The notes under the pieces: generated by a model
Seen by the model: only the letters and a program-made list of their open reading frames with translations
The model's database searches: none
Told to the model about the DNA's origin: nothing
Program-made: the position numbers and the translations under genes
Source: a virus
Length of the DNA: 27,229 nt
Virus record (IMG/VR): IMGVR_UViG_3300025301_000091
Span: 1 to 27,229 of that record
Strand: one strand, 5' to 3'
Shown here: one piece after another, positions 6 through 13,048 of the stretch
Numbering within the stretch: the stretch's first letter is position 1
How the letters are laid out: each line of letters starts with the position of its first letter

Positions 6-392
6 ATGAGTATTGCAAATGGTAAGTACCGTTTAGTTTCTACTGATGGTACCAACTGGTACGATATTTTTTCTTTAGCTGGATTAGGCGAAGCATGGGT
101 GGAAAAAACTGATAGTGATTCCCCTTACACAGCCTCAGACGGCGATAATATTTTTGTTGACTGCTCAAGTGATGTAGTCACAATAACATTACCCGCCTCT
201 CCTACAATTGGAATGCAAGTAAAAGTCATTGATGGCACAGGAAGTGCGGGAACCAATAATATTACTATTGATGGAGGAGCTGAAAAAGTTCAAGGAGACG
301 CGGCCGATATGACAATTTCCACTAACAGTGCAGGGATTTCTTTGGTATACTACGATTCAACAAATGGTTGGAGGCTAAAGTACAATGACTAA
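6..392 (+). CDS. Tail fibre/virion protein, possibly only the C-terminal end
   Basis: This 128-residue protein is rich in Thr, Ser, Gly and Asp. It has the beta-rich character of the end of a phage fibre: an N-terminal segment like LVSTDGTNWY and a later ITIDGG motif followed by an SLVYYDSTNGW-type ending. Such patterns are common near the ends of fibre or baseplate proteins. The first ATG is at base 6, and the frame is open to the window edge, so this may be the tail end of a longer fibre gene rather than a complete one. No ribosome-binding site can be judged. Its stop overlaps the next gene (collar-domain fibre) by 8 bases, which supports co-translation. Function is inferred from composition and position; no catalytic motif is seen. 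Confidence 0.7.
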   Translation: MSIANGKYRLVSTDGTNWYDIFSLAGLGEAWVEKTDSDSPYTASDGDNIFVDCSSDVVTITLPASPTIGMQVKVIDGTGSAGTNNITIDGGAEKVQGDAADMTISTNSAGISLVYYDSTNGWRLKYND

Positions 393-1059
393 TCTGCAGG
401 ATTTTACAAACAGAAGCGAAGTAGGCACAATCAAGCCTTGGGGAAAAACTACAGCACCTGTTGGATATTTATTATGCGATGGAACCGCTGTATCACGAAC
501 AACTTATGCCGAACTTTATGTGGTTCTTGGAGATACATACGGAGCGGGCAACGGATCAACAACATTCAACGTTCCTCAATTACAAGGAAAAACTCCGCAA
601 GGATATGATGGAAACACTTATAACCTCGCAGGAACGGGCGGTGCCAATACGGTAACCGTGGCTGTTACCAACAACCAGGCGGTAAGCAGTGTAACAGCTA
701 CAAACAGTGTAACAAACAACCAAGCGGTAACGGTAACGGGATCGATTGACAATACATCAATCACCGAGGCTCAGTTAGCCGCTCATATTCACAATATTCC
801 AGCTTTACTCAACAGTGGAGGCGGTGGAGGGGGCCACAAAGGAGGTTGCTCTCCGAAAGTACCAGGTCCCAACATGGTAACAAACAATGTTGGTTCAGGA
901 ACGGGACACAATCATTCACACACCTTGGCGGGAACGCTGACGGGAACAGTAGCGGTAACAACAACGGCATCAGGTGGTGCTTTATCGGGAACGGTAACGG
1001 CAGCGGGAAACAATGCCTTTTCACCTTACGTGGTGGTTAACTACATTATAAAACATTAG
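385..1059 (+). CDS. Phage tail collar-domain fibre protein with HxH motifs
   Basis: Residues about 13-75 match the phage tail collar domain: GTIKPWG, then PVGYLLCDGTAVSRTTYAEL, then YGAGNGSTTFNVPQLQGK. This fold is found in short tail fibres and other receptor-contacting proteins. The remainder is Thr/Val/Gly-rich with repeated VTNNQAV (95-101 and 109-115), a run of six glycines at 145-150, and His pairs H134/H136 and H175/H177/H179. It ends in the SPYVVVNYIIKH-type C-terminus common in collar proteins. HxH pairs bind iron at the tip of the T4 long tail fibre, so a metal-bound trimeric tip is possible here by analogy. A GGAGG at 370-374 precedes the ATG, which overlaps the upstream gene by 8 bases. 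Likely role: receptor binding at the tail tip. Confidence 0.88.
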   Translation: MTNLQDFTNRSEVGTIKPWGKTTAPVGYLLCDGTAVSRTTYAELYVVLGDTYGAGNGSTTFNVPQLQGKTPQGYDGNTYNLAGTGGANTVTVAVTNNQAVSSVTATNSVTNNQAVTVTGSIDNTSITEAQLAAHIHNIPALLNSGGGGGGHKGGCSPKVPGPNMVTNNVGSGTGHNHSHTLAGTLTGTVAVTTTASGGALSGTVTAAGNNAFSPYVVVNYIIKH

Positions 1060-1067
1060 GAAAAACA

Positions 1068-1454
1068 ATGGCAACACAAATTGTAATACATAACGACAGT
1101 TCTATAAAACTAGATGATTCCTTTTATATAGCTTGGGCGGATAAGGGAAACGCAATGCCTTCTCTACCCAACACTGTTCATGCTGTTATTTGGAATGATT
1201 TGATTGGTCAAAATGAAATTCAAAGCAAAGACCCTGCAACTGGAAACATGACGGGAAATACGGACTTAAGTGCTACTTCCGATGCTGTTGGATCAACAAC
1301 CATAGCTGATCTTCTTACATGGGGGGAAACCAGAAAAGGTGAAATAACAACTGCCATGGCAGCATACGATGCCGCCGTAGCGGATGATGAAGCTAATGGA
1401 ACGACTAACGCTGTTGGTAAAGAGTGGACTGACTACGATCCTAATTATTCTTAA
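1068..1454 (+). CDS. Hypothetical protein downstream of the tail fibre
   Basis: This acidic 128-residue protein begins with MATQIVIHNDSSIKL and has a central AVIWNDLIGQNEIQ segment. It recalls small proteins that follow fibre genes in marine phages, some of which resemble fibre-assembly factors, but I cannot name a family. An AGGAAA stretch precedes the ATG, and the gene starts 8 bases after the collar-fibre stop, so it is probably co-transcribed with it. No signal peptide or membrane segment is visible. Its TAA shares three bases with the TAA of the convergent minus-strand gene. Role in fibre assembly or as a minor virion protein is inference from position only. Confidence 0.75.
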   Translation: MATQIVIHNDSSIKLDDSFYIAWADKGNAMPSLPNTVHAVIWNDLIGQNEIQSKDPATGNMTGNTDLSATSDAVGSTTIADLLTWGETRKGEITTAMAAYDAAVADDEANGTTNAVGKEWTDYDPNYS

Positions 1455-2077
1455 TATTTTTTTAAAAAAAATAAATTCCTTTCCTTGAGTGTTGTTATCA
1501 TATTTTTAATTTCCTTTTTAATTTTTAGAAATTCTTCTTCATGTTCCTCATTAGTTTTATTGGGAGTTAAAGTGGCATAAGGCCCATTCAAATCAACATA
1601 ATGCAAGAACACTTGATGGTGCCAATATTCTTTTGGCTGTTGAAAAACAGGCCTCCAGTGCTCTACTTCTTCCCCTTTATAAATAACTCCGTCACCTGAC
1701 TTAATGTTGATGGGGATATTTCCCATGCAAAGAGGCCACTGATATGTTTTATCCTGGTAAAAATATTTTAAAGTTATAGAAGCGCTTATTTCGCAGGCTT
1801 TTCTGTCTCGATGTTTTGATAATTCGGATCCTCCTACATAAATTCTGGTATAACCATACATAGGCTTTAACTTTAAATTAGTTTCTTTTTCCATGACAGG
1901 GAGTAAATGATGAAGTAAATGAGAATAAATTTCTGAGTTCTGGGAATGCAATGAAAAAGCGTGGTTTACTTGTTCGTCTATCCATGTTTTTTCAACGTTT
2001 TTTAAAGTCCAAGTGGACAGGTATTCCACCAAATCCATGGAGAGCATGTTCTTAACATATATGTATTTATTTTTCAT
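1451..2077 (-). CDS. 2OG-Fe(II) oxygenase-like protein (HxD type)
   Basis: This 208-residue protein has the double-stranded beta-helix signature of 2-oxoglutarate/Fe(II) dioxygenases. YTRIYVGGSELSKHRD contains the H89-x-D91 metal pair, and GVIYKGEEVEHWRPVF supplies the distal H140. A basic residue after H140 (R142 or K149) could bind 2-oxoglutarate. The family hydroxylates protein side chains, sugars, nucleobases or small molecules; the substrate here is unknown. AGGAA lies just upstream of the ATG, and the gene overlaps the upstream glycosyltransferase by 11 bases, so the two are probably made together. It ends at the shared TTAA junction with the plus-strand tail gene. The last 30 residues are Lys/Glu-rich and probably lie outside the fold. 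Confidence 0.8.
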   Translation of the reverse strand: MKNKYIYVKNMLSMDLVEYLSTWTLKNVEKTWIDEQVNHAFSLHSQNSEIYSHLLHHLLPVMEKETNLKLKPMYGYTRIYVGGSELSKHRDRKACEISASITLKYFYQDKTYQWPLCMGNIPINIKSGDGVIYKGEEVEHWRPVFQQPKEYWHHQVFLHYVDLNGPYATLTPNKTNEEHEEEFLKIKKEIKNMITTLKERNLFFLKKY

Positions 2078-2915
2078 TTAATTTCCTCGCCTCCTCTATT
2101 ATTTTTTTTGGATTAATTTCTACACAATAAGGATATTCTGATATTATATTTATATTTTCTTTATATCCAAACCTCTCAGGTTTTGATGTTCCCCACAAAA
2201 CAATTCCTTTTTTATTAAAAGATTGATTAGAGCCCATGTGTTGAAGCGCGCTGTCTATAGAAATAAAAAAATCACAATACTTGGACAATACCATAAAATC
2301 TTCTCGTGTTTTAAATAAGGGCAATCCCCCTTCATCATTAAATTTTGTTTCCCCTACAAATTCCCTCCTTTCATTGAAGTGACTAAAGACAATTAATAAA
2401 TGTCGAGGAAAAAATTCAGTTAAAAGTGAAATTAGTTCCTGTCCATATTTATAATTTTTACCTAAATTATTAAAATCGTAGTTATTTGATTCTATTCCTT
2501 GACCGCCCGTAAATTGAAGAAGAATAAATTTATCTATTTTTTTTATATGGGGTATAAATTTTTTTTCCAAGTCTGGGTTTATGGAAAAATTTGGCCTGTA
2601 ATCGTTTATCTTTATTTTATATAGATCAGCCCAGTTTTTTACAACATGACTTTTACCTTTTACAAAATCAGTTTTATAAGGATCATGAAAAAATAGTTTA
2701 TTAAAATGATTATAATATTGTTGATATGTGTCAAAAAATACGTCATCCGTCCCTTTTTTTGAATCTGCAACTTCAGGGCAATAGTTAAATAGTTCAGGGT
2801 ATTCTGAGTTAATAATTAATTTTTGATTATATTTCCTGTATAGAAATGACAGTAAGGCAGTAAACTGCAAGTGTTTTCCTACCCCTCCTTCTATATAATA
2901 GAGATTAGGTTTCAT
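2067..2915 (-). CDS. Glycosyltransferase family 9-like (heptosyltransferase-like) protein
   Basis: Two motifs indicate the GT-B fold of the ADP-heptose:LPS heptosyltransferase type. An N-terminal GGVGKHLQFTALLSFL (residues about 10-25) is like the nucleotide-sugar-enzyme GxGDxL start. A C-terminal FFISIDSALQHMGSN (216-230) with D221, S222 and H226 is followed by GIVLWGTSKPERFGY (237-251), like the D/SG..H and VLWGpT.P motifs of family 9. At 282 residues it is somewhat shorter than bacterial heptosyltransferases (about 320-350). It would transfer a sugar from an activated donor; acceptor and donor are unknown. No good ribosome-binding site is seen. The ATG lies 6 bases after the stop of an HxD oxygenase and the gene overlaps another HxD oxygenase downstream, so translational coupling is likely. 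Confidence 0.78.
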   Translation of the reverse strand: MKPNLYYIEGGVGKHLQFTALLSFLYRKYNQKLIINSEYPELFNYCPEVADSKKGTDDVFFDTYQQYYNHFNKLFFHDPYKTDFVKGKSHVVKNWADLYKIKINDYRPNFSINPDLEKKFIPHIKKIDKFILLQFTGGQGIESNNYDFNNLGKNYKYGQELISLLTEFFPRHLLIVFSHFNERREFVGETKFNDEGGLPLFKTREDFMVLSKYCDFFISIDSALQHMGSNQSFNKKGIVLWGTSKPERFGYKENINIISEYPYCVEINPKKIIEEARKLNEK

Positions 2916-2921
2916 TATATA

Positions 2922-3449
2922 TCAATGAATCCATGTTATAATGGCGTGTCGATCCCCATTTGTAACGGGAGTTACAGCATGAGGAAAACAGAAGTTGCTC
3001 GGAAATACAACTGCACTTCCAGCTTTTTTCTTAATTATATGCCCTCCCTCAAAAAAAGAAAAATCCCCTCCATCATAATTATCATTCAATATTATTGAAC
3101 AACTTAAAACCCTAGGATATAAATCCATATGATCTACATGGGATTTATATTCCCCTTTTTCGCTCCCCTTATAAAGCAGATGTTGATAACCAGTATCTTC
3201 GGTATTTAAACCAGTGGTAAAGTAAGTAAAATCATTTTGGTATTGTTGTAATATTTTACCCACACTTTCATACATAGAACCGTCAAATTTTTTATTCAAT
3301 CTTGAATCATAGCAGTTTCTGGCTTGGGATACATCTCCGTCATTAACCGTGGCTCTTTGAAAATCACCAGAGGCTTCTATAATTTCTTCACATACTTCTT
3401 TGCTTATTATGTCCGTATAACATTTTATATAATCTTGTATTTTTATCAT
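2922..3449 (-). CDS. Prolyl-4-hydroxylase-like 2OG-Fe(II) oxygenase
   Basis: This is the clearest dioxygenase in the window. The 175-residue protein carries H104-x-D106 in YKSHVDHMDLYPRVLSCSII, a DGGDFSFF strand, distal H157 in FCFPHAVTPV, and R167 in NGDRHAIITWIH at the very C-terminus. This is the order and spacing of the P4Hc domain: two His and one Asp bind Fe(II), and the Arg binds the distal carboxylate of 2-oxoglutarate. Related enzymes hydroxylate proline in proteins, but phage members act on unknown substrates. The start overlaps the upstream DUF6065-like gene as ATGA, and the stop is 6 bases from the glycosyltransferase start. All catalytic residues are present, so it should be active. 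Confidence 0.92.
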   Translation of the reverse strand: MIKIQDYIKCYTDIISKEVCEEIIEASGDFQRATVNDGDVSQARNCYDSRLNKKFDGSMYESVGKILQQYQNDFTYFTTGLNTEDTGYQHLLYKGSEKGEYKSHVDHMDLYPRVLSCSIILNDNYDGGDFSFFEGGHIIKKKAGSAVVFPSNFCFPHAVTPVTNGDRHAIITWIH

Positions 3450-4129
3450 TTGAAACTTTTTTTATTCCAGAACATTTTTTTATACCGATCCATAAATTTA
3501 CTTTCTAGAAGTCGAAGAGTTTTGCCATGGGCTACTTCCATTACAAAGCCAGACCATTTTTTCCATGACTCTCGTTTAAATGGAATTACTTGAATCATGG
3601 GTTCTCCTTTTTTCAAAAGGGTCTGCTGATTCCATTTTTTCCAATGAAAAGGAAAATTAATTACATTAATGTACGTATCCGTATCCACCACTCCCGATAT
3701 GGCTTCAAAACGTTCTTCTCTTCGATTAAGAGGTTGAATAAATAAACAGCTATATCCTGGCGGGGTTTTGATTAGCCATTTGTTATGAAATTTTCCCGCG
3801 TTTTCTTTTCCCTTATCGTCTCCTAACGGAAGTTGGGTTTTATTATGAAATCCCGCAGGTTCAGGTTCTTTGTTGGCAGATGAAATACTTAAATCGGTTT
3901 CCGTTGCATCCACAATATAATCCTGGTCAAAAGGAATAATGTACCCCGCAGTTAAGGCATCCAAAAAAGGTATGCATGTCTTAACCGTTGGTTTGTGAAG
4001 ATTATTATCCTCGTGACGTTTTAAATTTTTATAATTTTGCGGAATAAAATGATTGGCAGCTTGGGGATGTGGCCATATGTTTTCATAATCTTTATCAATG
4101 GCAATGAAAGTTATTTTCTTTTCAAACAT
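3446..4129 (-). CDS. DUF6065-like protein in the oxygenase cluster
   Basis: The 227-residue protein (start taken as MFEKK) contains TCIPFLDALTAGYIIPF, then KWLIKTPPGYSCLFIQPLN, then ISGVVDTDTYINVINFPFHW, then KKGEPMIQVIPFKRESWKKW. I recall this order of motifs from the DUF6065 family of phage and bacterial proteins of unknown function; the assignment is from memory, not a search. A later ATG than the longest frame (which opens at 4144) is chosen because TAAGGAG lies at 4134-4140, right before it. The start overlaps the upstream oxygenase stop by 8 bases, and the end overlaps the P4H-like gene as ATGA. No HxD...H triad is present, so it is not counted as an oxygenase. Its conserved place among oxygenases suggests a shared pathway. 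Confidence 0.72.
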   Translation of the reverse strand: MFEKKITFIAIDKDYENIWPHPQAANHFIPQNYKNLKRHEDNNLHKPTVKTCIPFLDALTAGYIIPFDQDYIVDATETDLSISSANKEPEPAGFHNKTQLPLGDDKGKENAGKFHNKWLIKTPPGYSCLFIQPLNRREERFEAISGVVDTDTYINVINFPFHWKKWNQQTLLKKGEPMIQVIPFKRESWKKWSGFVMEVAHGKTLRLLESKFMDRYKKMFWNKKSFK

Positions 4130-4727
4130 TTTTCTCCTTATCATTTACAATAAAATTAAAAGACATGGATCGACGAACTGCTTTAGGGTCTTTGGTTTTA
4201 AAGGGCATTACGCAATGTTGGTGACGGGCGTGAAAAATATAAAAATCCCCGACTTTAGGGGTAACATAATAAGTGGTGTTTCCTCCCATTATAAAACACA
4301 GTGACCCGTCCTTGAACTTGTGGGGATCTTTTGCATCGTTAATGAATTCGGGAACCTTTAAAAACAGAACCGTTGACCAACCGGATCCGTCATGATGGGT
4401 ATGGGGAGGATTGTATTCCCCCGCTTTCATGTCATTTATCCAGCATCCTATAATATCCAAATTGTAGGAGTCACTTGGTAAGCATTTAAATTCAATGCTT
4501 TGCTTCATATGTTTTTCCATACATTTAACGATTTGAGGAAAAGAATCCGTTGATTGGATAATGGGTAGCATCTCCAATTCACTATCCAATCTACCCGCCA
4601 AACGTGGTCCGTAGCTTTTTAAACCGTCCTTGGCGGCTTCATATCTTTTATTAAGGTCTTTAATGTATTTATTGGCTATTTTATAGTGGCCAATAAAAAA
4701 GGAATCTGCAATGATTTCTGCTTTCAT
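4122..4727 (-). CDS. Putative 2OG-Fe(II) oxygenase (HxH type)
   Basis: This 201-residue protein belongs with the phage group described as putative 2OG-Fe(II) oxygenase (PF13759/TIGR02466-like). NDMKAGEYNPPHTHHDGSGW carries H109-x-H111 (with D113 two residues on) and is followed by STVLFLKVPEF. VGDFYIFHARHQHCVMPF holds H171 and VRRSMSFNFIV holds R185/R186. The family's typical order of metal His, distal His and terminal Arg is kept, but the first pair is HxH rather than HxD. The N-terminal 90 residues are mostly helical. ATGA overlaps link it to the gene upstream, and its stop overlaps the DUF6065-like start. Substrate unknown. Confidence 0.82.
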   Translation of the reverse strand: MKAEIIADSFFIGHYKIANKYIKDLNKRYEAAKDGLKSYGPRLAGRLDSELEMLPIIQSTDSFPQIVKCMEKHMKQSIEFKCLPSDSYNLDIIGCWINDMKAGEYNPPHTHHDGSGWSTVLFLKVPEFINDAKDPHKFKDGSLCFIMGGNTTYYVTPKVGDFYIFHARHQHCVMPFKTKDPKAVRRSMSFNFIVNDKEKNV

Positions 4728-5251
4728 TCTTTTTTCTGTTCCTTTTGTTGCATATCAAAATTACCTGAAATAGATATTCTTTCCTCTTTTGTATCGTTTT
4801 GTCCTGTATAATGAAAAACTTCACTTGGAAAAATCAATAACATTTTTTTCTCAGGGGTAATTATTCTTTCAATTATTTTACCATTCCAAAATATAATAAA
4901 TCGTAAACCTCCTTGTCTCTCTATAAAATTGGGATAATAAACAAAAGAACAGAAGTTTCCACGGTGATTGTGAAGTCCTGTTGAAGCCTTAGGTGAAGTT
5001 TTATGAATCCATGATTGTGCATATTCTAAATTTACGCCCATAATTTCTTGAGTTTTATCTTTTATTCTATTTTTAAGTTCGTTGAGTAAAGGGGTATTAG
5101 GACACTTATAATCTTCAAAGAAAGAATGGTTAATGTCATTATTCATTTTTTCATCACTTTTCTTTATTTCTTGTAAAAGAACATCAGTATCAATATCTAT
5201 AAAGGTTTCAAAAACCTGAATAATTGCCAAGACATGATTATTTACTTTCAT
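4724..5251 (-). CDS. Putative Fe(II) oxygenase (HxH type), first gene of leftward cluster
   Basis: The 175-residue protein (start taken as MKVNNHV) contains ASTGLHNHRGNFCSFVYY with H94-x-H96, a GGLRFIIFWNG strand, then KKMLLIFPSEVFHYTGQN with H147, and EERISISGNF with R159. These fit the PF13759-like oxygenase plan in a shortened form. The ATG at 5251 is preferred because GGGAGAA lies 5-11 bases ahead of it. An upstream in-frame ATG at 5272 (seven residues more) has a weaker AAGGAA and cannot be excluded. It heads the leftward run of genes to 1451. The transcript probably begins in the 126-base gap before the divergent gene at 5378. The acidic helical N-terminus (1-70) is unlike its neighbours. 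Confidence 0.75.
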   Translation of the reverse strand: MKVNNHVLAIIQVFETFIDIDTDVLLQEIKKSDEKMNNDINHSFFEDYKCPNTPLLNELKNRIKDKTQEIMGVNLEYAQSWIHKTSPKASTGLHNHRGNFCSFVYYPNFIERQGGLRFIIFWNGKIIERIITPEKKMLLIFPSEVFHYTGQNDTKEERISISGNFDMQQKEQKKE

Positions 5252-5377
5252 TCTATTTTCTCCCTCTTCCATATCATAATTTCCTTGTCAAGAAAACAAT
5301 TTAAAAAAGTTCTATTGCTTTGGAACGAAATATGGTTAAATTGGTTCTCACCCAAAAATTTAAATCAGGAGAAAAAA

Positions 5378-5593
5378 ATGGAAAATCAGGAAGTATTGAA
5401 GGCTATAGCTGTCCTCGCTGACAAGGTGAGCCGCTACCACGAACGTTTATTAGCTACGGAGAGAGATAATTTAAGACTAGAAAAGACACTGGCCGAGCAC
5501 CTTAAGGGGTGTGGTTGTCATGATACTTCCGATGAAAAAGTAATGCTTAACGGCACTGAAACCGAGATTGAATGTGAAGCCTGTAGCGCTTAA
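5378..5593 (+). CDS. Small coiled-coil protein with possible zinc-binding cysteines
   Basis: A 71-residue protein on the plus strand, alone between minus-strand genes. Residues 1-43 form a probable coiled coil (KAIAVLADKVSRYHERLL then RLEKTLAEHL). The C-terminal part has C45, C47, H48 and C66, C69, arranged CGCH...CEAC, which could hold one zinc ion. ATG at 5378 is chosen because a strong AGGAG lies at 5368-5372. A longer frame back to 5234 has no such signal and would run through the promoter region of the divergent operon. The TAA shares the TTAA at 5590-5593 with the convergent gene. No family is recognised. A regulator or a small oligomeric structural protein are both possible. Confidence 0.75.
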   Translation: MENQEVLKAIAVLADKVSRYHERLLATERDNLRLEKTLAEHLKGCGCHDTSDEKVMLNGTETEIECEACSA

Positions 5594-5847
5594 TCGTTAT
5601 CGCTTGCGCCGATCATGTCGGCCAATGACGGGGCGAATATTTTAACGTCTCGTCTAATGTGTTCTTCTTTCGTTTCTGTTCCAGGATCAGCTACATCATT
5701 GGTAGCGTGTTCTTCTGAATCATATTCTTGATTTGTTTCTGTATTAGTAATTGTAGTTTCTGAACGGCATCTAATGTGAGGAACCATGCGACCATCACCA
5801 GCATCAATTTCCCCCAAGACTTTTGCTTCTTCTATGATTTTAGCCAT
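5590..5847 (-). CDS. Hypothetical small acidic phage protein
   Basis: An 85-residue acidic protein starting MAKIIEEAKVLGEIDAGDGR, with a central GRMVPHIRCRSETT segment and a C-terminal HIRRDVKIFAPSLADMIG. Similar-looking small proteins occur near virion genes in marine phages, but I cannot assign a function. AAAGGAG lies directly before the ATG. The start overlaps the upstream oxygenase stop by 8 bases (ATGGCTAA), so translation is coupled to that gene. It is the last gene of its leftward run and ends at the shared TTAA with the plus-strand gene. No membrane segment, signal peptide or metal motif is seen. Confidence 0.75.
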   Translation of the reverse strand: MAKIIEEAKVLGEIDAGDGRMVPHIRCRSETTITNTETNQEYDSEEHATNDVADPGTETKEEHIRRDVKIFAPSLADMIGASDND

Positions 5848-6433
5848 TGTTTCTCCTTTTTAATTCAATATTAAAACTTATCACAATTCTTTCTTCTTGT
5901 GAATTATTTTTCTCCACTTCATGGGTAAGCCATGAGGGGAAAAACAGTATATCATTTTGCTTGGGTTTCCAAGAAACCCGGGAAGAGGTATGTATGCTTT
6001 CTCCTGGTTTTTTAGGAGGAGCCAGGACTTCACTCTGAGGACGAGGATCATGAAAGACAAGAGCCCCGCTATCTTCAGGAACTTGTAAATAAAAAACCCC
6101 CGACATATTATTATAGGGGTGACTATGTAAACGATTACTGCTTCCCGGCCCATTGACCACGGCCCACATACCAGTAATTATAGGAACTATTTGATCAATA
6201 ATGGATAAGTGACTCATTGTCTCTTTTGTCATTTCAATTATTTCTGCTTTTAATTTAGCGAATTGTTTATCCTCATGTAAAAAATCATGGCTATGCCATC
6301 CCCCATCAGTGCTTTTTCCTTCAACACTTATGGGCTCTTTCTCTTGAATATTTTTTATAACTTCAGTAAGATTTTCATAGCCTGCTAAATTTATAGAAAA
6401 GATAGGAGTAATAAATAAAGAATGAAGGTCGAT
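5840..6433 (-). CDS. 2OG-Fe(II) oxygenase (PF13759/TIGR02466-like) with apparent ATC start
   Basis: The full 197-residue frame fits the TIGR02466 plan. It starts near DLHSLFITPIFSINLAG, then has DGGWHSHDFLHED (about 43-55), NRLHSHPYNNMSGVFYLQVP with H103-x-H105, LVFHDPRPQ, FFPSWLTHEVEK with H171 and ERIVISFN with R182. The first ATG in frame is only at residue 68 (base 6232), inside the conserved domain. No ATG, GTG or TTG exists upstream before the stop at 6482-6484. An AGGGGA followed 6 bases later by ATC at 6433-6431 is the best start. It shares one base with the upstream stop (TAATC), just as other genes here use TAATG. Either ATC is used, or an ATG was mutated or misread. Catalytic residues are intact. 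Confidence 0.8.
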   Translation of the reverse strand: MDLHSLFITPIFSINLAGYENLTEVIKNIQEKEPISVEGKSTDGGWHSHDFLHEDKQFAKLKAEIIEMTKETMSHLSIIDQIVPIITGMWAVVNGPGSSNRLHSHPYNNMSGVFYLQVPEDSGALVFHDPRPQSEVLAPPKKPGESIHTSSRVSWKPKQNDILFFPSWLTHEVEKNNSQEERIVISFNIELKRRNNG

Positions 6434-6807
6434 TACAAATCCCCTTTTGTTATTTCCAGTACGCTTAAAGTAATATGAATCTCATTAGCGGCGTTCGCTG
6501 TAATTTTAATCAAGTCCGATTCCTCCAGAACCAGAGGCTGTGATAAAACCTCATAGGTGGTATCGGTGGCAATCGTCTTATCATTGGTAATTTTATAGGT
6601 TGCCGAAGCGCTGCTGTCCGTCCATTCTATGGTGTACTCAGTGGTGTTCGCAGAATCATTGCATATGATAATGGATTTAATTACGGCTGTGGTTGGAAAA
6701 ATAGGAGCAGTTCCTGTTATACCTGGAGCCGCTGTTGGAACCGTGTAAATGGTTGTTGGATCAGTTGTGGTTAAATCTACACCGGCATTTTTAAAAGTAT
6801 CAGCCAA
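6433..6807 (-). CDS. Small virion-type structural protein
   Basis: A 124-residue Thr/Ile/Ala-rich protein of beta character: MADTFKNAGVDLTTTDPTTI, then AVIKSIIICNDSANTTEYTI, then EVLSQPLVLEESDLIKI and a final HITLSVLEITKGDL. This pattern (A-V-I-K-S-I-x-I-x-N, later L-V-L-E-x-x-D-x-I-K) is common in small proteins in virion modules of marine phages and suggests a decoration, neck or tail component. The start is TTG at 6807, supported by a strong GGAAGGAG 8 bases ahead. No ATG would keep the conserved N-terminus. It overlaps the upstream 55-residue gene by 8 bases, and its TAA overlaps the apparent ATC start of the oxygenase. Function is inferred. Confidence 0.8.
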   Translation of the reverse strand: MADTFKNAGVDLTTTDPTTIYTVPTAAPGITGTAPIFPTTAVIKSIIICNDSANTTEYTIEWTDSSASATYKITNDKTIATDTTYEVLSQPLVLEESDLIKITANAANEIHITLSVLEITKGDL

Positions 6808-6967
6808 GGTACCAACTCCTTCCAGAAGATTTTTCTTCTATATCCTGAGAGTAAGAAGTATTTAAATTTAAAATTAATTGTTCGAGTAAACGAATCATTT
6901 GATCAAATTGACTTGGTTCATATTGAGACGTGGCATTAGGTAAACGAGTAATCGTTATTTTAGCCAT
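6800..6967 (-). CDS. Small conserved-looking phage protein (55 aa)
   Basis: This 55-codon gene reads MAKITITRLPNATSQYEPSQ, then FDQMIRLLEQLILNLNTSYS, then a tail ending SGRSWYLG. The middle is an amphipathic helix (DQMIRLLEQLILNL) that could mediate oligomerisation. Support for its being real: the ATG overlaps the upstream stop in the form TAATG, its own stop overlaps the TTG start of the next gene by 8 bases, and a start TTITRLP-plus-RLLEQ pattern is one I recall from small virion-module genes of marine phages. No enzyme motif. It probably belongs to the same neck/tail group as its neighbours; this is inference. Confidence 0.75.
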   Translation of the reverse strand: MAKITITRLPNATSQYEPSQFDQMIRLLEQLILNLNTSYSQDIEEKSSGRSWYLG

Positions 6968-7446
6968 TATCTATATCCTCCAAAAAAAGAATTTAATAAC
7001 ATATTATAAGGAGAGTATCCATAATTTGGCTGTACCATTCCTCCCATTCCTGATCCCCTGTTTTGTAGTAAGCTTCCAATTCCTTCTTCTATTTTTGCTA
7101 ATTTATCATTTACTCCTCCAAACCTGTCTCCCAGTCCACTAATTTGTTGACCAAACCTGTCTCCCAGTCCACTTAACTGTTCACCAAATCCTCCAAGTCT
7201 TTCTTCAAATCCTCCTAGCTGCTCGCCATATCCTCCAAGGGTTTCTCCGTATCCTCCAAGGGTTTCACCAAATCCCGTTATCTGTTCTCCCATTCCCTTA
7301 ACTCCCCACGGATCAAACTGTTTAGGTGGCTGTTGAATTGGATGTTGGTAAGGGTATTGAGGTTGTCTTGGCCCTCCTGCAAGTCCGAATATTCCACTCA
7401 AGGACAATTGCCTTCTCTTTAAATCATTTGGATCGTACTGTGTCAT
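6967..7446 (-). CDS. Glycine-rich heptad-repeat protein, putative virion protein
   Basis: A 159-residue protein with a Pro/Gln-rich N-terminus (about 26-47) and then at least seven seven-residue repeats of the type GYGETLG, GYGEQLG, GFEERLG, GFGEQLS, GLGDRFG (about 57-110). A KLAKIEEGIGSLLQ helix and a Gly/Met/Tyr-rich end follow. In each heptad an aromatic or Leu and a Leu/Phe/Ile fall at regular positions, so a trimeric coiled coil or stalk is likely despite the glycines. At DNA level there are 21- to 33-base-spaced near-perfect repeats. ATG overlaps the upstream stop as TAATG, so translation is coupled to the P22 gp10-like tail gene. I infer a tail or fibre stalk-like role; no family is recognised. 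Confidence 0.75.
   Translation of the reverse strand: MTQYDPNDLKRRQLSLSGIFGLAGGPRQPQYPYQHPIQQPPKQFDPWGVKGMGEQITGFGETLGGYGETLGGYGEQLGGFEERLGGFGEQLSGLGDRFGQQISGLGDRFGGVNDKLAKIEEGIGSLLQNRGSGMGGMVQPNYGYSPYNMLLNSFFGGYR
7118..7173 (-). repeat. 23-base direct repeat within heptad-repeat gene
   Basis: The segment 7118-7140 (beginning ccaaacctgtctcccag on the plus strand) recurs without change at 7151-7173, an offset of 33 bases. It encodes the two SGLGDRFG units of the heptad-repeat protein. The identity at DNA level suggests recent duplication or ongoing recombination. Confidence 0.85.
7228..7269 (-). repeat. 21-base tandem repeat within heptad-repeat gene
   Basis: Two adjacent 21-base units, 7228-7248 and 7249-7269, share tatcctccaagggtttc and differ at only two positions. 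Each encodes one GETLGGY heptad of the repeat protein. The unit length equals one coiled-coil heptad, so unit gain or loss keeps the frame. Confidence 0.85.
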
Positions 7447-9326
7447 TATCTTCTTCCGTCCGGTCTAAGTTGAAGTTTCATTGATCCCAATCTCCAGTTT
7501 GTATCATCCACAGTATCACTTGCAAAAGCTAATTTTACTGATCGTCCTCTTCCTCTTACATTAATTTTAGTCGTGGTGCTAGTAACATTACCTGAAGTAG
7601 TTTGACTTGTTGTTGATTGAGGGTAATCCTCCAATGTTAAAGTAACGGCTACATTATTTGTTAGGGAAGTAAAGTCAGGAACAAATTTACTCACTGACAT
7701 AAATTGATCTCCATTTGCAATTTCAATTGATCCTGTTGTTAAGGAAGCTGTTAAGGCAGTTCCATCAGCTTGGTTGTTTCCTATTTCTTGATTATATACA
7801 TAGGAAGCTCCCGCCGTGACGCCGTAAGGAGTATCGGTTACTCCTGTGCTTGTAGTGGCATTGGCCACTAAAGCAGCATCATATTGCGTGGCTATAGGAT
7901 TTTCAAAGGTGTAATTTCCCAGGTACGTGGTTCTTCCCAATGTTGACGTATACCACGTTCCTTCCAGATAATTATAGACAACAACTCTATCAATTTGCGT
8001 GGCGCTGCCTGAGGGATAATACCACATAATTTCATTAAATTCGGGGTTGATGCCACAGGCAATGTCATTCTTGTTTGTGTAACTCAAGTCATCATATACG
8101 TAATCTTGTACAGAACACGGCATTTTTTTAACAACACCATCGTACATATAGAATGCATCATCACCCATCCAGAAAGCTTTACCATTCACATCAATGGCTG
8201 CATGCTGTGCTATCAAGCCACAGTTGGCTCCTAATTGTCTTTGACCAAATGTAAAGGGAGTTCCTACAAATTGAATACCGTGCAAGGATTGGTCAGTCCA
8301 TACCAGGATTTGACCTGTTGATGTTACCGCTCCTATGATACGGGAACCATCAGCAATACGCAATGATCCCGCTTCATTTGTCGATTTTGGTGCCCACTGC
8401 GTCAAACTTTCACGATCAGAAAATCTAAAAAATAAATCATCTTGCGTGGCTGCATCTGTAACTGTTGTGCATGTGCCAAATAAAAATAAGTGTCTTGTGT
8501 CAGATGATACTAAAGAAAAACGAGAAGCTACCGGGGCTGTTGCACCAAGGCTCACGGCCCTAGTTGTTGTGCCTCCTGAAGTATCCCATTGATAAGTGCC
8601 CCCGTTTAAGACGGTAGCAATCAAGTCCTCGCCAAAATTATCCAATGACCATTGACGAGCATTAATGGTGACGCTTGATGAAGACCTAGCGGTACCCCAT
8701 GTACTTAATCCCCATGTTAAAACACCCCAACCATATCCATAAGTTGATGTAGCGGGGCCAACAGAAATTTGATAGCTTGCGGTTACCGATCCACCTCCCG
8801 CCGCTGTTGTTCCCGTAGCGTCCGAGGAATAGGTTATTTTATAACTGTTGCTATCAACAATTTCCGTAATTTCAAATTCATTGTTAAATTCTATACCGTC
8901 CACAACATTGTTGGTGGTAGTGTCGTCAAATGTAACAAAATCGCCCAGTGCCGCTCCATGCGACGCATCGGTTACGGTCACGATAGGACTACCGCTTACT
9001 GTCGCAAAAGGATTTGTTAAACTCTCTGTTTCCCGAATGGGTGTAATATCATAAAGTCCACTGCCTACTAATATATATAATTTTCTATCGGTTCCCAAAG
9101 CAAGATATCTGGTTCCGTTTAAACTAACCCAGGAATGCGTATCACGGACCACGCCAATAAGGGTTTCATTGGGATTGGGAAGGTATTCCCACCCCTTCCA
9201 CCTTTCGGGTTTTCCGTAATGAAACCTTACTAATTGAGAATCAATATAGCGTCGATCATCTCCCGCCGCATAAGGGGAGTCTTGTTTATCTACACCTGGT
9301 TGAAATTTTAAATCGGTTAATTGCAT
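7446..9326 (-). CDS. P22 gp10-like packaged-DNA stabilisation/tail protein
   Basis: A 626-residue protein with a beta-propeller-like repeat pattern. It begins LKFQPGVDKQDSPYAAGDDR, then FHYGKPERWKGWEYLP, a pattern typical of the Phage_stabilise family (P22 gp10). That protein plugs the portal after packaging and links it to the tail. Further family-like pieces: SLNGTRYLALGTDRKLYILV (about 69-88), YGYGWGVLTWGLSTWG, LVSSDTRHLFLFGT, DGSRIIGAVTSTGQILVWTD, KAFWMGDDAFYMYDG and NEIMWYYPSG. P22 gp10 has 472 residues; the extra length includes an Ala/Thr/Val-rich beta insertion at about 105-190 and a Thr-rich C-terminal part. The weak GTGGT before the ATG is 16 bases downstream of the glycosyltransferase gene. 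Expected in the virion at the portal/tail junction. Confidence 0.82.
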   Translation of the reverse strand: MQLTDLKFQPGVDKQDSPYAAGDDRRYIDSQLVRFHYGKPERWKGWEYLPNPNETLIGVVRDTHSWVSLNGTRYLALGTDRKLYILVGSGLYDITPIRETESLTNPFATVSGSPIVTVTDASHGAALGDFVTFDDTTTNNVVDGIEFNNEFEITEIVDSNSYKITYSSDATGTTAAGGGSVTASYQISVGPATSTYGYGWGVLTWGLSTWGTARSSSSVTINARQWSLDNFGEDLIATVLNGGTYQWDTSGGTTTRAVSLGATAPVASRFSLVSSDTRHLFLFGTCTTVTDAATQDDLFFRFSDRESLTQWAPKSTNEAGSLRIADGSRIIGAVTSTGQILVWTDQSLHGIQFVGTPFTFGQRQLGANCGLIAQHAAIDVNGKAFWMGDDAFYMYDGVVKKMPCSVQDYVYDDLSYTNKNDIACGINPEFNEIMWYYPSGSATQIDRVVVYNYLEGTWYTSTLGRTTYLGNYTFENPIATQYDAALVANATTSTGVTDTPYGVTAGASYVYNQEIGNNQADGTALTASLTTGSIEIANGDQFMSVSKFVPDFTSLTNNVAVTLTLEDYPQSTTSQTTSGNVTSTTTKINVRGRGRSVKLAFASDTVDDTNWRLGSMKLQLRPDGRR

Positions 9327-9342
9327 AAGACCACATACTAAA

Positions 9343-10134
9343 TTATTTCTTCTTCGGTGGCAAGAATTGAGTACCTACATTGCCTTTGAAGGCATAAGTC
9401 CCATAGTGCGTCAGCCCACTCGTAATGTCAGCATATACGGTCCCACCAATCTTCTGCCATAGTCTACAGAAAGCATAGTCCTCTGACAAGTATCTTTTAG
9501 TTTCTGGTTCAACCGTGGTATCAAAAAAAGCATAATTCCAATTTGAATTATCATGATAATTGAACGTTTTATCGTGGGGGTCATTTAAATGTTGATCCGA
9601 TTTAAATTTTAATTCAGGATAAGCTTTAGCCATTTTTTCAAAGACCTGTCTTTTAATCAACATAAAACCCGTAGCGCCGTCCAGTACTTCTATAAATCCT
9701 TTTTTTACTTCCACGTGTTCTGGATTTTTTACATTAAGATTATACTGTAATGAAGAAGCTAATAATTCATTTTCTTTAATATTGGGTTTTTCTTTTACTT
9801 TTCGTATAACTTTTGTCCAATCAATAGTCTTTCTTGGATATACTCCTGTCACTACTTCTTCATCCAGTTCTAACATTCGCATAACAGTTCTTTCACTAAA
9901 ACCAATATCAGCGTCTATAAAAAGTAAATGGGTATACTCTGAATGATCCATGAATAATTGAACCAATGTATTACGAGCTCTCGTTACTAAAGATTCATTT
10001 CCAATTGTACCAAACTGTAGTCCTACTTTATTTAGGGAGCATTCAGACATTAAACGTAAACAGCTTTCAAAATAATTTACAGAAATCATTCCCCCATAAC
10101 ACGGGGTTCCGATAAATATTTTAGAACCCGGCAT
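9343..10134 (-). CDS. GT-A-fold glycosyltransferase
   Basis: A 263-residue protein with the start of a GT-A nucleotide-sugar enzyme, KIFIGTPCYGGMISVNYF (residues 5-22). THLLFIDADIGFS holds D74-A-D76, the DxD that binds the metal and sugar nucleotide. EVLDGATGFMLIKRQVF (about 160) and YLSEDYAFCRLWQKIGG (about 226) follow, with a C-terminal GLTHYGTYAF where His could complete the metal site. I recall very similar proteins from cyanophages and other marine phages, annotated as glycosyltransferases. The ATG overlaps the upstream HxD oxygenase by 14 bases. Donor and acceptor are unknown. With the neighbouring hydroxylase, glycosylation of a hydroxylated group is a reasonable inference. Confidence 0.8.
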   Translation of the reverse strand: MPGSKIFIGTPCYGGMISVNYFESCLRLMSECSLNKVGLQFGTIGNESLVTRARNTLVQLFMDHSEYTHLLFIDADIGFSERTVMRMLELDEEVVTGVYPRKTIDWTKVIRKVKEKPNIKENELLASSLQYNLNVKNPEHVEVKKGFIEVLDGATGFMLIKRQVFEKMAKAYPELKFKSDQHLNDPHDKTFNYHDNSNWNYAFFDTTVEPETKRYLSEDYAFCRLWQKIGGTVYADITSGLTHYGTYAFKGNVGTQFLPPKKK

Positions 10135-10654
10135 CTTTGGAAACCTTTTGTCTGTAAAAAATATTTAACGTATAGCGTGGAGAACTTTCCCCTAATCCCT
10201 GTAAGTCCGTATGCCATATTTTACTGCCATTAAAAAATAAAGCCCGATTTTCTACAAATCCTATATGTGAGGAAAGTTTACTACCTATAAAAAACCCGGT
10301 TCCGTTATTTAATAATGGTTCTCCCTTAACAAAGAAAAGAAAATTTGCTATGTTTCCTTTATCCGTATCAATATGTACTTTAGGTTCTCCTTGATTGTGG
10401 CGCAAATGAGCATGAATAGATATTGGTTCTAGATCTGTATAAGGAAAAAAGAATTCTTTAATACGCTGCAAGACCGGATCATTTTTAAATTGATGGAGAG
10501 GAAAGGTGTGTCTTTGACCATAATGCTGTCCTTCTTCATTTTTTACTTCGGTATATTTTAAACTAATAAGTGTTTCTTGTAATGATTCTAATGTTTCAAC
10601 ATTAAAAAAATTATCTACGTATTGAACGTATGCTGTTTCCTTACTGTGTTGCAT
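10121..10654 (-). CDS. 2OG-Fe(II) oxygenase-like protein (HxD type)
   Basis: A 177-residue protein with HLRHNQGEPKVHIDTDKG holding H94-x-D96, then NFLFFVKGEP, FFIGSKLSSHIGF, ALFFNGSKIWHTDLQG with H148, and SSPRYTLNIFYR with R160. The spacing between HxD and the distal His (52 residues) and Arg 12 residues later is right for a 2-oxoglutarate dioxygenase. The core resembles small phage oxygenases but is not close to the other copies here. The start overlaps the upstream 91-residue gene by 14 bases, and the stop overlaps the glycosyltransferase by 14 bases. Substrate unknown; a partner of the adjacent glycosyltransferase is likely. Confidence 0.83.
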   Translation of the reverse strand: MQHSKETAYVQYVDNFFNVETLESLQETLISLKYTEVKNEEGQHYGQRHTFPLHQFKNDPVLQRIKEFFFPYTDLEPISIHAHLRHNQGEPKVHIDTDKGNIANFLFFVKGEPLLNNGTGFFIGSKLSSHIGFVENRALFFNGSKIWHTDLQGLGESSPRYTLNIFYRQKVSKDAGF

Positions 10655-10916
10655 AGTCTATTTTTAAATATTCTATTTTTTTTATCCATCCTTGGGGGAT
10701 GGCAATGGCTCCTCCTCCAGTAATGTCTTCTTTATCTTTACTGTAAGAACGCATAATAACTATTTTTTCAGGACTATTAACAACCATCCATCCTACTTCT
10801 TGGCATGTAGCAAGAGGCGCTTTTAAAATATCTTTAATATCGAGCCAACCTGTTTCTGTATCACGAGCATCCAACCACGTCACACGGACCATTGGAGTCT
10901 TGTCAATATTAATCAT
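10641..10916 (-). CDS. Hypothetical small phage protein (WLDARD motif)
   Basis: A 91-residue, mostly beta protein: MVRVTWLDARDTETGWLDIK, then CQEVGWMVVNSPEKIVIMRS, then a GGGAIAIPQGWIKKIEYL end. The pattern of two short beta halves with conserved Trp residues is one I recall from small conserved genes in marine phages, with no known function. An SH3-like barrel is plausible from the strand pattern but unproven. Its ATG overlaps the upstream oxygenase stop as ATGA, and its end overlaps the downstream oxygenase by 14 bases, so it sits inside an oxygenase pair in one translational unit. A helper or substrate-binding role is only speculation. Confidence 0.75.
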   Translation of the reverse strand: MINIDKTPMVRVTWLDARDTETGWLDIKDILKAPLATCQEVGWMVVNSPEKIVIMRSYSKDKEDITGGGAIAIPQGWIKKIEYLKIDYATQ

Positions 10917-11617
10917 TTCAATAATTGTTTTTCTTCTTCTTTTTTAATAAGGTGAAGATTAAACGACACGGATCGTCTTTCTTCATTAGGGGTTCTAAAA
11001 GGATAGACACCGTGTGCTAACCAATTTGGAAATAAAAATATATCACCAACTCGAGGCGAGTGTTGAAATTTATGCCCACTAAATGTTGAGGCTCTTCCAT
11101 CAAACCAACATATATCACCAACTGTAGGATAATGATCCTCTTTTGCATACTCCTCGGGTAAGCTTGGAGGAACCCGTAAATAAAACACACCTGATAGTTG
11201 GCCTTCATGGATATGAAAAGGATTAAAATCCCCTGCATATTGTGAGACAACCCACATAGATTCCATAACCAATTTACCTACAAATTCAGGTTTGATAGTT
11301 TCATTAGCAGGAGGAATAGAAATATAGGATTTAACCATCTCTCCTATGAAGCTTACCATAGGAAGAAATGCATTTGTATCCATCCACTCAGTCGGGAAAC
11401 GTACCTCTTGCTTAACATTCCCTGCTAGTGATCCTGAATGATCAAACTCTTTTGAAAGTTTTTCATCCTCTAGCATTTCTGTTGCTTTAGTATCCATCAA
11501 TTCAAGTAAGTGTTTAGGAAGTGTTCCCCTTACTATTGTTGGACCGAAAGGTCGAATAGCCTGGAACTCGATAGTTTCTTCTTTAGACTTTTTTATTTGT
11601 TTTTTTTGTGGCTTCAT
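10913..11617 (-). CDS. 2OG-Fe(II) oxygenase (PF13759/TIGR02466-like, HxH type)
   Basis: A 234-residue protein with a charged N-terminus (1-16), then AIRPFGPTIVRGTLP and helices. The catalytic half has SQYAGDFNPFHIHEGQLSGV with H135-x-H137, then FYLRVP, DICWFDGRAS, GDIFLFPNWLAHGVYPFR with H202, and NEERRSVSFNLHLI with R214/R215. This matches the PF13759 plan closely (NPFHxH, SGVFYLRVP, FPNWLxH, ERRSVSFN). No earlier or later ATG fits, so the 35-base overlap with the upstream small gene is accepted. The stop overlaps the next gene as ATGA. Substrate unknown. Confidence 0.85.
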   Translation of the reverse strand: MKPQKKQIKKSKEETIEFQAIRPFGPTIVRGTLPKHLLELMDTKATEMLEDEKLSKEFDHSGSLAGNVKQEVRFPTEWMDTNAFLPMVSFIGEMVKSYISIPPANETIKPEFVGKLVMESMWVVSQYAGDFNPFHIHEGQLSGVFYLRVPPSLPEEYAKEDHYPTVGDICWFDGRASTFSGHKFQHSPRVGDIFLFPNWLAHGVYPFRTPNEERRSVSFNLHLIKKEEEKQLLK

Positions 11618-11845: not shown

Positions 11846-13048
11846 ATGAACAAGCTTAAATTAGTTAAGGGCGGATTAGCCGACTTTCAAGAAGCGGTCG
11901 ATGCCCTTAAAGATTTCGGACGATATGAAGATGACACGCTAGCTCACGTAGCGACAGGGGAAACCATTATCCCCATGGAGGTTTTTGAAAAGAACCCTAA
12001 GTTACGAGATCAAGTATTTAAATCTATGGCGGATCTAGGAATAGATCCAACCGAATATATTGTAGGCAGTAATTTTAATTCGATTAACCCCGTAACAGGG
12101 CAGCCGGAATTCTTTCTTAAAAAATTATTTAAAAAATTAAAAAAAGCTGCACCTATTATTTTACCAATTGCCGCATCTTTTATTCCCGGTGTGGGTCCTT
12201 TAATGATGGGCGCCGCAGGGTTTGCTGGTGGTAAAATAGCAGGTCAAGATACAAAACAGGCTCTTATGTCTGGTATTATGGCAGGGCTTGGTGGTAAGTT
12301 TGCTAAGGGATCACAGGCAGCTCAAGCTGGTCTGGATGCTGGTGCTGGATCTTTAGGAAGTTCTATATTTAAAGGAATATCTAAAGAAGGTTTGGGAAGT
12401 TTATTAAGAAGAGCGGCGCTGGAAAATGCAGGGGTTGTTCCATCAGGAGCGGGTAATCTACCCGGAGGAGGTATGAGTGAATCTAAAGCAGCAACATATT
12501 TTCAAAATGCAGATAATCCTGCGTTCACAGGCTACAAGTCTGGTGGAGCTGACGCCGCAACCAAGAAGAACTGGCTGGATATCTTCAGGAAAAAGGGAGA
12601 AGCAGGGGGTGACTGGAGCCCTCAAAGAATATTTACAGCAATGACTCTAGGTGGTATGATTCCTGGAATGTTTGCACAAGATGAGGAAACGGAGGAGTAC
12701 GTAGACACTAATGTATATCCTGGTGACTTTGGACAACTACTTCAATTAGCTAAAGCTAATACATATAATCCAGGTAGTAATATTGTCCCTTTTAGTTTAG
12801 CTAAAGGTGGTATAGTTAATTTAAAAGAAGGAGGATTTCCTTATGCCACTGCTCAAAGAGCAGAAGGAGGGATCACGGGTCGCGGAACAGGGACCAGTGA
12901 TGAAATCCCCGCTTACTTAAGCAATGGCGAATTTGTTGTAACAGCCAAGGCTGTTAAAAATGCAGGCGGTTCACGACCTATGTATGATATGATGGATCAT
13001 TTAGAAAAAGGTGGTAAACTGTCAATGGAATCGAGAGGTAAAAAATAA
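11846..13048 (+). CDS. Putative internal virion/ejection protein with membrane-active segment
   Basis: A 400-residue protein opening the rightward virion block. Residues 89-131 run from a Lys-rich amphipathic stretch (FFLKKLFKKLKKAAPIILPI) into a Gly/Ala-rich hydrophobic stretch (AASFIPGVGPLMMGAAGFAG), the kind of segment that inserts into membranes. Residues 29-44 (DDTLAHVATGETIIPM) and 352-366 (DEIPAYLSNGEFVVT) share a D-[DE]-x-x-A-x-[VL]-[AS]-x-G-E pattern, so the ends carry a related motif. I recall GLADFQEAVDALKDFGRYED and the GE motif from marine-phage virion proteins. Position before larger coiled-coil proteins suggests a T7 gp14-like role, but no direct homology is claimed. Start fits the AAGGAG 4 bases upstream; stop overlaps the next ATG as TAATG. 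Confidence 0.7.
   Translation: MNKLKLVKGGLADFQEAVDALKDFGRYEDDTLAHVATGETIIPMEVFEKNPKLRDQVFKSMADLGIDPTEYIVGSNFNSINPVTGQPEFFLKKLFKKLKKAAPIILPIAASFIPGVGPLMMGAAGFAGGKIAGQDTKQALMSGIMAGLGGKFAKGSQAAQAGLDAGAGSLGSSIFKGISKEGLGSLLRRAALENAGVVPSGAGNLPGGGMSESKAATYFQNADNPAFTGYKSGGADAATKKNWLDIFRKKGEAGGDWSPQRIFTAMTLGGMIPGMFAQDEETEEYVDTNVYPGDFGQLLQLAKANTYNPGSNIVPFSLAKGGIVNLKEGGFPYATAQRAEGGITGRGTGTSDEIPAYLSNGEFVVTAKAVKNAGGSRPMYDMMDHLEKGGKLSMESRGKK

Follow-up and report, generated by a model that had tools for sequence, protein, structure and literature searches.

A conserved, tail-linked cluster of seven diverged 2-oxoglutarate oxygenase genes in an HTVC023P-type podovirus, with correction of a ferrochelatase label

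Sets of 2-oxoglutarate (2OG)-Fe(II) oxygenase genes have been described in marine phages before: HTVC023P-type phages have eight non-orthologous, co-located oxygenases together with three glycosyltransferases (Wittmers et al. 2022; PMC9599517), cyanophage S-SCSM1 carries 24 2OG oxygenases (PMC9602691), and a wide distribution among marine phages has been noted for proteins that resemble prolyl hydroxylases (PMC12774648). Because these reports precede ours, the cluster that we analysed—part of the 27,229-base IMG/VR virus record IMGVR_UViG_3300025301_000091, hereafter "the window"—is not new as such and is of a kind known in HTVC023P-type phages. An earlier note on this DNA had cited single oxygenases as the phage precedent, which is true as far as it goes but falls short of the multi-oxygenase sets already published for the same phage group. 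What is new here is the correction of a gene label, a conserved architecture around a tail gene, the fold of a DUF6065 protein, and a testable hypothesis about substrate.

Open reading frames are present at every position listed for the cluster in the earlier note, that at 5840–6433 being open to 6433. The genes, with what each is predicted to encode, are listed below.

1451..2077, minus strand: OX1, 2OG oxygenase misnamed ferrochelatase (phrog_2954); AlphaFold fold, VIA Z 17.0, invariant H89/D91/H140
2067..2915, minus strand: GTa, possible GT9-like glycosyltransferase; Pfam Glyco_transf_9 E = 0.0081, below cut-off
2922..3449, minus strand: OX2, PF13640 2OG oxygenase with HxD...H...R; Pfam 5.7e-15, phrog_61 1.2e-35
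3446..4129, minus strand: DUF6065 protein, dUTPase fold; Pfam 5.2e-8, AlphaFold pLDDT 77.7
4122..4727, minus strand: OX3, PF13759-type 2OG oxygenase; Pfam 6e-13, usually directly before DUF6065 (30 loci)
4724..5251, minus strand: OX4, PF13759-type 2OG oxygenase in the variable stretch; Pfam 3.9e-11
5590..5847, minus strand: small conserved cluster gene; homologues in 97 loci, preceded by OX5 in 53/55
5840..6433, minus strand: OX5, PF13759/TIGR02466 2OG oxygenase in a fixed slot, rare start; Pfam 1.7e-27, TIGR02466 6.3e-37
6433..6807, minus strand: small conserved gene after the tail gene (phrog_1276, 2.6e-8); follows TAIL in 55 loci
6967..7446, minus strand: glycine-rich open reading frame overlapping the tail gene; homologue beside TAIL in 10 loci
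7446..9326, minus strand: TAIL, tail/virion structural gene in mid-cluster; phrog_3287 virion structural protein, 1.8e-80
9343..10134, minus strand: GTb, probable GT-A glycosyltransferase; phrog_34859 2.5e-4, invariant D74xD76, STIV A197 E = 0.0038
10121..10654, minus strand: OX6, 2OG oxygenase carrying the PHROGs name "DNA endonuclease V" (phrog_274); invariant motif, OGFOD1 match
10641..10916, minus strand: small conserved cluster gene without Pfam match; homologues in 95 loci
10913..11617, minus strand: OX7, PF13759-type 2OG oxygenase, fixed first gene of the cluster; Pfam 8.7e-18
385..1059, plus strand: collar-domain tail fibre at the far end, convergent with the cluster; Pfam Collar 1.3e-21

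The claim of seven Fe(II)-oxygenase genes was borne out by several lines of evidence: five pass Pfam gathering scores (those at 2922, 4122, 4724, 5840, and 10913), OX6 is recognised by an invariant motif and a match to OGFOD1, and OX1 by fold and motif. By sequence and modelled structure, all seven genes encode 2OG-Fe(II) oxygenases whose turnover is predicted, and they represent four families—PF13759 (OX3, OX4, OX5, and OX7), PF13640 (OX2, above the family cut-off at 5.7e-15), and two that lie outside Pfam (OX1 and OX6). Family profiles that we built match exactly these seven genes across the 27 kb, all between 1.4 and 11.7 kb. Profile–profile comparison unites OX3, OX4, OX5, and OX7 and keeps OX1, OX2, and OX6 separate; because pairwise hhalign comparison among these three and the PF13759 group returned no relation, we argue their kinship within the superfamily through fold and motif. 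The best pairwise identity among the window paralogues is ~30%, and the best per locus is 30–37% in the seven loci checked. Recent tandem duplication, which the note had also discounted, is rejected at this level of divergence.

The label in most need of correction is that of OX1, which matched no Pfam family at E up to 1, ferrochelatase (PF00762) included. Structure prediction, proposed in the note as a check, yielded a confident AlphaFold model (mean pLDDT 93.5) with the double-stranded beta-helix fold of 2OG oxygenases: these enzymes make up all 50 matches listed (prolyl 4-hydroxylase [P4H], PHD2, SnoN, and PiuC; VIA Z 15–17), the top Foldseek match is a Pseudomonas P4H (4.6e-8), and VIA-align gave Z scores of 17.0 to SnoN, 16.6 to P4H, and 15.8 to the viral collagen hydroxylase vCPH. 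The HxD/E...H triad (H89, D91, and H140) is unchanged across 33 sequences. A nearly invariant arginine, R142 (HWR), stands at an unusual spacing from the distal histidine, and the usual position of the 2-oxoglutarate Arg/Lys reads QxFxHY. Fold and metal motif thus identify the predicted OX1 protein as a prolyl-hydroxylase-like 2OG-Fe(II) oxygenase with an uncertain 2-oxoglutarate-binding residue. HTVC023P gp67, deposited as a putative ferrochelatase, matches phrog_2954 at 2.8e-51 and our OX1 profile at 8e-62, with no Pfam match at E up to 0.1, and of the 156 phage records in which tblastn found an OX1 relative, most are from cyanophages; ferrochelatase is the name given to most of the matches listed. 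Two cyanophage "ferrochelatases" of the phrog_3531 type are homologous to both OX1 and OX2 and are two-oxygenase fusions: in S-T4, residues 4–176 are OX1-like and 206–385 OX2-like (L214:9986-11146), and in ACG-2014f the corresponding segments are 11–180 and 186–360 (L213:11929-13017), so that domains encoded by two genes in the window form one protein there. On the modelled fold and sequence profiles, the ferrochelatase label on phrog_2954 and OX1 is wrong, as newly recognised here. At least two papers treat phrog_2954 as ferrochelatase—in PMC9599517 it figures as the oxygenases' iron/haem partner, and PMC11561400 describes phrog2954, under that name, as enriched in seasonal viruses—and both readings need revising.

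The four PF13759-type proteins each pass the family cut-off, and it is through this profile that we assign them to the oxygenases. All 105 of 105 OX3/OX4/OX5/OX7 sequences read HxH...H...R and never HxD (the motif is invariant in 56 OX3 and 20 OX7 sequences), so that none of the four carries the canonical two-histidine-one-carboxylate triad (HxD/E...H). Because the solved PF13759-type protein 2rg4 likewise reads HIH, we regard HxH as a trait of this branch; HxH...H points to a predicted three-histidine centre that departs from the usual triad. Within this group, the OX5 frame has no ATG, GTG, or TTG before 6232, yet is open to 6433, and because the 197-residue product read from 6433 matches the TIGR02466 profile end to end (positions 1–200), the longer reading, from a rare start codon, is very likely correct. 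The start codon is non-standard (ATC or near) and lies just past the GGGG-type ribosome site of the preceding gene. OX6 had no match in Pfam. Across 70 relatives, some with as little as 17% identity, its HxD...H...R residues (H94, D96, H148, and R160) never vary. A search with its profile found OGFOD1 (4nhx), a protein hydroxylase, at E = 0.0017, and from this match we tentatively predict a double-stranded beta-helix fold. By sequence, the OX6 family falls within phrog_274, whose PHROGs name is DNA endonuclease V; this name and that of phrog_1644 ("minor coat protein"), which also matches the OX6 oxygenase, look misassigned.

The cluster genes lie on one strand, mostly overlapping, around the tail structural gene, and in related IMG/VR contigs they follow the order OX7, (small gene), OX6, GTb, TAIL, (small gene), OX5, (small gene), variable stretch, OX3, DUF6065, OX2, OX1, after which come convergent tail genes. 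This fixed order was seen in dozens of contigs. The baits used to collect loci were OX1, OX6, GTa, and DUF6065. This biases per-locus gene counts, such as the five to nine oxygenases in 40 of the 73 loci of at least 10 kb, a tally in which overlapping loci from one contig count more than once; the informative counts are therefore those of genes other than the baits. OX7 follows the counterpart of the virion gene at 11846 in 34 of 36 loci, and GTb stands directly before TAIL in 66 of 82. In a 48-kb record, every PF13759 and OX6 gene lies within ~12 kb. A tree of PF13759-type proteins also groups genes by slot: all OX5-slot genes form one clade (16/16, support 0.999), and 36 of 40 OX3-slot genes fall inside a clade of 38 (support 0.88). 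The OX7 slot stands out less well, with 7 genes in a clade of 10 (support 0.50). Seventy further oxygenases sit at varying positions in the loci. The median ratio of nonsynonymous to synonymous substitution among orthologues (dN/dS) is 0.10–0.21, and 0.11 for the tail gene; the testable cluster genes are under purifying selection similar to that on the tail gene. Because the set offered no OX4 orthologue above 60% identity, that gene stands outside this analysis. Taken together, core genes hold fixed positions while slots gain and lose extra oxygenases, up to nine per locus, an arrangement newly described here. An OX6-type copy broken by internal stops (record G575, locus L062, 4516-4978) suggests that oxygenases are lost from variable slots.

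Among the remaining genes, the DUF6065-like gene reported at 3446–4129 was confirmed by Pfam (5.2e-8). Its AlphaFold model (pLDDT 77.7) has a dUTPase fold, a new assignment that concerns fold and leaves catalysis aside: the matches listed are dUTPases and one dCTP deaminase, with Foldseek probability 1.00 and VIA Z ~11, and a profile search of the PDB returned nothing useful. The five catalytic motifs of dUTPases are partly recognisable by eye, GVVDTDxY and KKGEPMxQ resembling motifs III and IV, with the tyrosine shifted by one. Relatives at 33–37% identity occur in haloarchaeal tailed viruses (L203, L204, and L205) beside thymidylate synthase or ribonucleotide reductase, and in three cellular DUF6065 neighbourhoods (L249, L252, and L253) the profiles built here found no neighbouring oxygenase. 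The two glycosyltransferases of the earlier note fared unequally. The product of 9343–10134 (GTb) is probably a GT-A glycosyltransferase, with an invariant DxD and a PHROG glycosyltransferase match at 2.5e-4 (Pfam is below cut-off and the STIV A197 match is weak), whereas that of 2067–2915 (GTa) is possibly GT9-like, its resemblance to PF01075 (E = 0.008) scoring 15.9 bits against a cut-off of 22; a PDB profile search with GTa returned nothing useful.

The PolA protein of the window is 56% identical to that of 023Pt_psg01, 53% to HTVC023P, and 52% to the freshwater phage DSL-LC04, and the TAIL product shares 37–40% identity with HTVC027P/HTVC023P and 43% with the DSL-LC04 stabilization protein. 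Judged from DNA polymerase and virion gene sequences, the window is a fragment of an HTVC023P-type podovirus. Cultured members of this group infect SAR11, a likely host here too, although DSL-LC04 is about equally close. A contig from single-cell genome AG-910-K03 (L200) may supply host evidence for the group; it and a contig from a Maricaulis metagenome-assembled genome (L201) carry DUF6065-OX2-OX1, and both assemblies are labelled alphaproteobacteria.

What might such a cluster do? The earlier note proposed one modification system; its conserved, co-directional gene set interlocked with tail genes holds up—in the fixed order, the slot-wise tree, the OX1–OX2 fusion, and similar runs in three other phages—while hydroxylation followed by glycosylation, and the target, are matters of interpretation. 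We tentatively favour a reading, possible though somewhat short of probable, in which late cytoplasmic enzymes hydroxylate and then glycosylate phage appendage proteins. The cluster genes would be made late, alongside tail proteins, and, with iron and 2-oxoglutarate at hand in the cytoplasm, the oxygenases would act there on side chains of a phage-made protein, most likely a tail or appendage protein. Glycosyltransferases would then attach sugar at some hydroxylated sites, and the chemistry of the virion surface would shift as oxygenases are swapped in the variable slots. Inspection by eye suggested no export features in the cluster proteins, and the substrate should therefore be cytoplasmic during infection. 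DUF6065, OX2, and OX1 recur as a unit, and for this reason the DUF6065 protein may serve the two oxygenases as a partner or scaffold.

Several observations argue for this protein-modification reading. The cluster keeps fixed synteny with tail genes, its genes group by slot, and each testable gene is under tail-gene-like purifying selection. OX1 and OX2 are fused in two cyanophages, and the DUF6065-OX2-OX1 order recurs near a tail gene and a glycine-rich protein in the Maricaulis-binned contig, which is a phage contig judged by its tail genes. By analogy, pelagiphage Mosig and cyanophage S-T4 have mixed oxygenase runs that adjoin tail-fibre genes or lie within a few genes of them, and the run of cyanophage S-CREM1 adjoins a collagen-like gene, all of which would suit an appendage substrate. 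After its collagen-like gene, the S-CREM1 run (L207:399-8516) includes eight genes that bear the name 2OG oxygenase, along with a tryptophan halogenase gene, a JmjC gene, and one resembling DUF6065. OX1 and OX6 resemble protein hydroxylases (P4H, PHD2, viral collagen hydroxylase, and OGFOD1). Of five cellular OX1 relatives, two have genes for peptide or protein modification nearby, which is likewise suggestive. One alphaproteobacterial relative (L248:8814-14968) is near asparagine synthase, PqqD, a sulfotransferase, and a kinase-like gene, as in lasso-peptide-like clusters; another (L247:1336-10808) is beside a second oxygenase, TPR proteins, and a GT41 gene. Weighing on the other side, no modified product is known, late expression is an assumption, GTa is weakly supported, the single OX relatives found in HTVC008M and ACG-2014d/f have replication or nucleotide genes as neighbours, and DUF6065 has a nucleotide-enzyme fold and haloviral relatives in nucleotide-metabolism settings. 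A more elaborate version, which we consider doubtful, is combinatorial virion modification: a fixed core of oxygenases, dUTPase-fold partner, and glycosyltransferases would modify tail or appendage proteins, and related phages would differ in their hydroxylation and glycosylation patterns through oxygenases that can be exchanged (up to nine per locus, from four families, one of them with a three-histidine metal site).

Among other explanations, the one that survives best, if still unlikely, places the substrate at the host surface: the enzymes would act in SAR11 on surface proteins or on precursors of surface polysaccharide, so that re-adsorption is blocked or the envelope altered. The two likely glycosyltransferases in the set would fit, as would a cellular OX1 relative found a few genes from a porin-like gene (by eye) and a GT41 enzyme, yet the cluster interlocks with tail genes and not with sugar-nucleotide genes. 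Slightly less plausible is that these are independent auxiliary metabolic genes, each oxygenase acting on its own small molecule or shifting 2-oxoglutarate/nitrogen signalling. Such roles have been proposed for cyanophage oxygenases (PMC3037559) and agree with the great diversity and the gain and loss of genes, but they leave the fixed slots, the OX1–OX2 fusion, and the recurring DUF6065-OX2-OX1 unit unexplained. Nucleotide or DNA modification, with oxygenases hydroxylating a base, glycosyltransferases adding sugar, and the dUTPase-fold protein handling the nucleotide, draws on that fold and on the haloviral neighbourhoods described above. We consider it improbable: the match of OX2 to Tet_JBP (E = 0.04) falls below cut-off, the other oxygenases do not reach that family, and the DNA-hypermodification genes of the HTVC023P-type group are reported to lie elsewhere, some near the polymerase (PMC9599517). 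Finally, that the 1451–2077 protein is a ferrochelatase serving iron-dependent oxygenases, as published for its relatives on the co-occurrence of the two, is next to impossible and is rejected, given the oxygenase fold and invariant HxD...H of OX1 itself and the lack of any Pfam ferrochelatase match in OX1 or HTVC023P gp67.

Set against the systems already described, the window most resembles the HTVC023P-type sets of PMC9599517—the same phage group, with co-located oxygenases, a "ferrochelatase" adjoining an oxygenase, and glycosyltransferases—and differs in that its genes are largely contiguous and in a conserved order around a tail gene, that OX1 is recognised as an oxygenase, and that DUF6065 is assigned a fold. 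The fixed positions by tail genes and the OX1–OX2 fusion make the question of what marine phage oxygenases act on directly testable on virions of cultured isolates. Cyanophages S-SCSM1 (24 oxygenases) and S-CREM1 (10) likewise carry many diverged PF13759, PF13640, and related oxygenases per phage (PMC9602691, PMC9964418), but are T4-like myoviruses, and S-CREM1 adds the tryptophan halogenase and JmjC genes. Further afield, the vCPH enzyme that OX1 matches in fold (Z 15.8) is from PBCV-1, and the hydroxylate-then-glycosylate logic of the mimivirus collagen enzymes (PMC9546862) resembles what we propose; those prolyl and lysyl hydroxylases belong to eukaryotic viruses and act on collagen substrates. 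If tail proteins are indeed modified, the cluster would be a phage version of this giant-virus chemistry.

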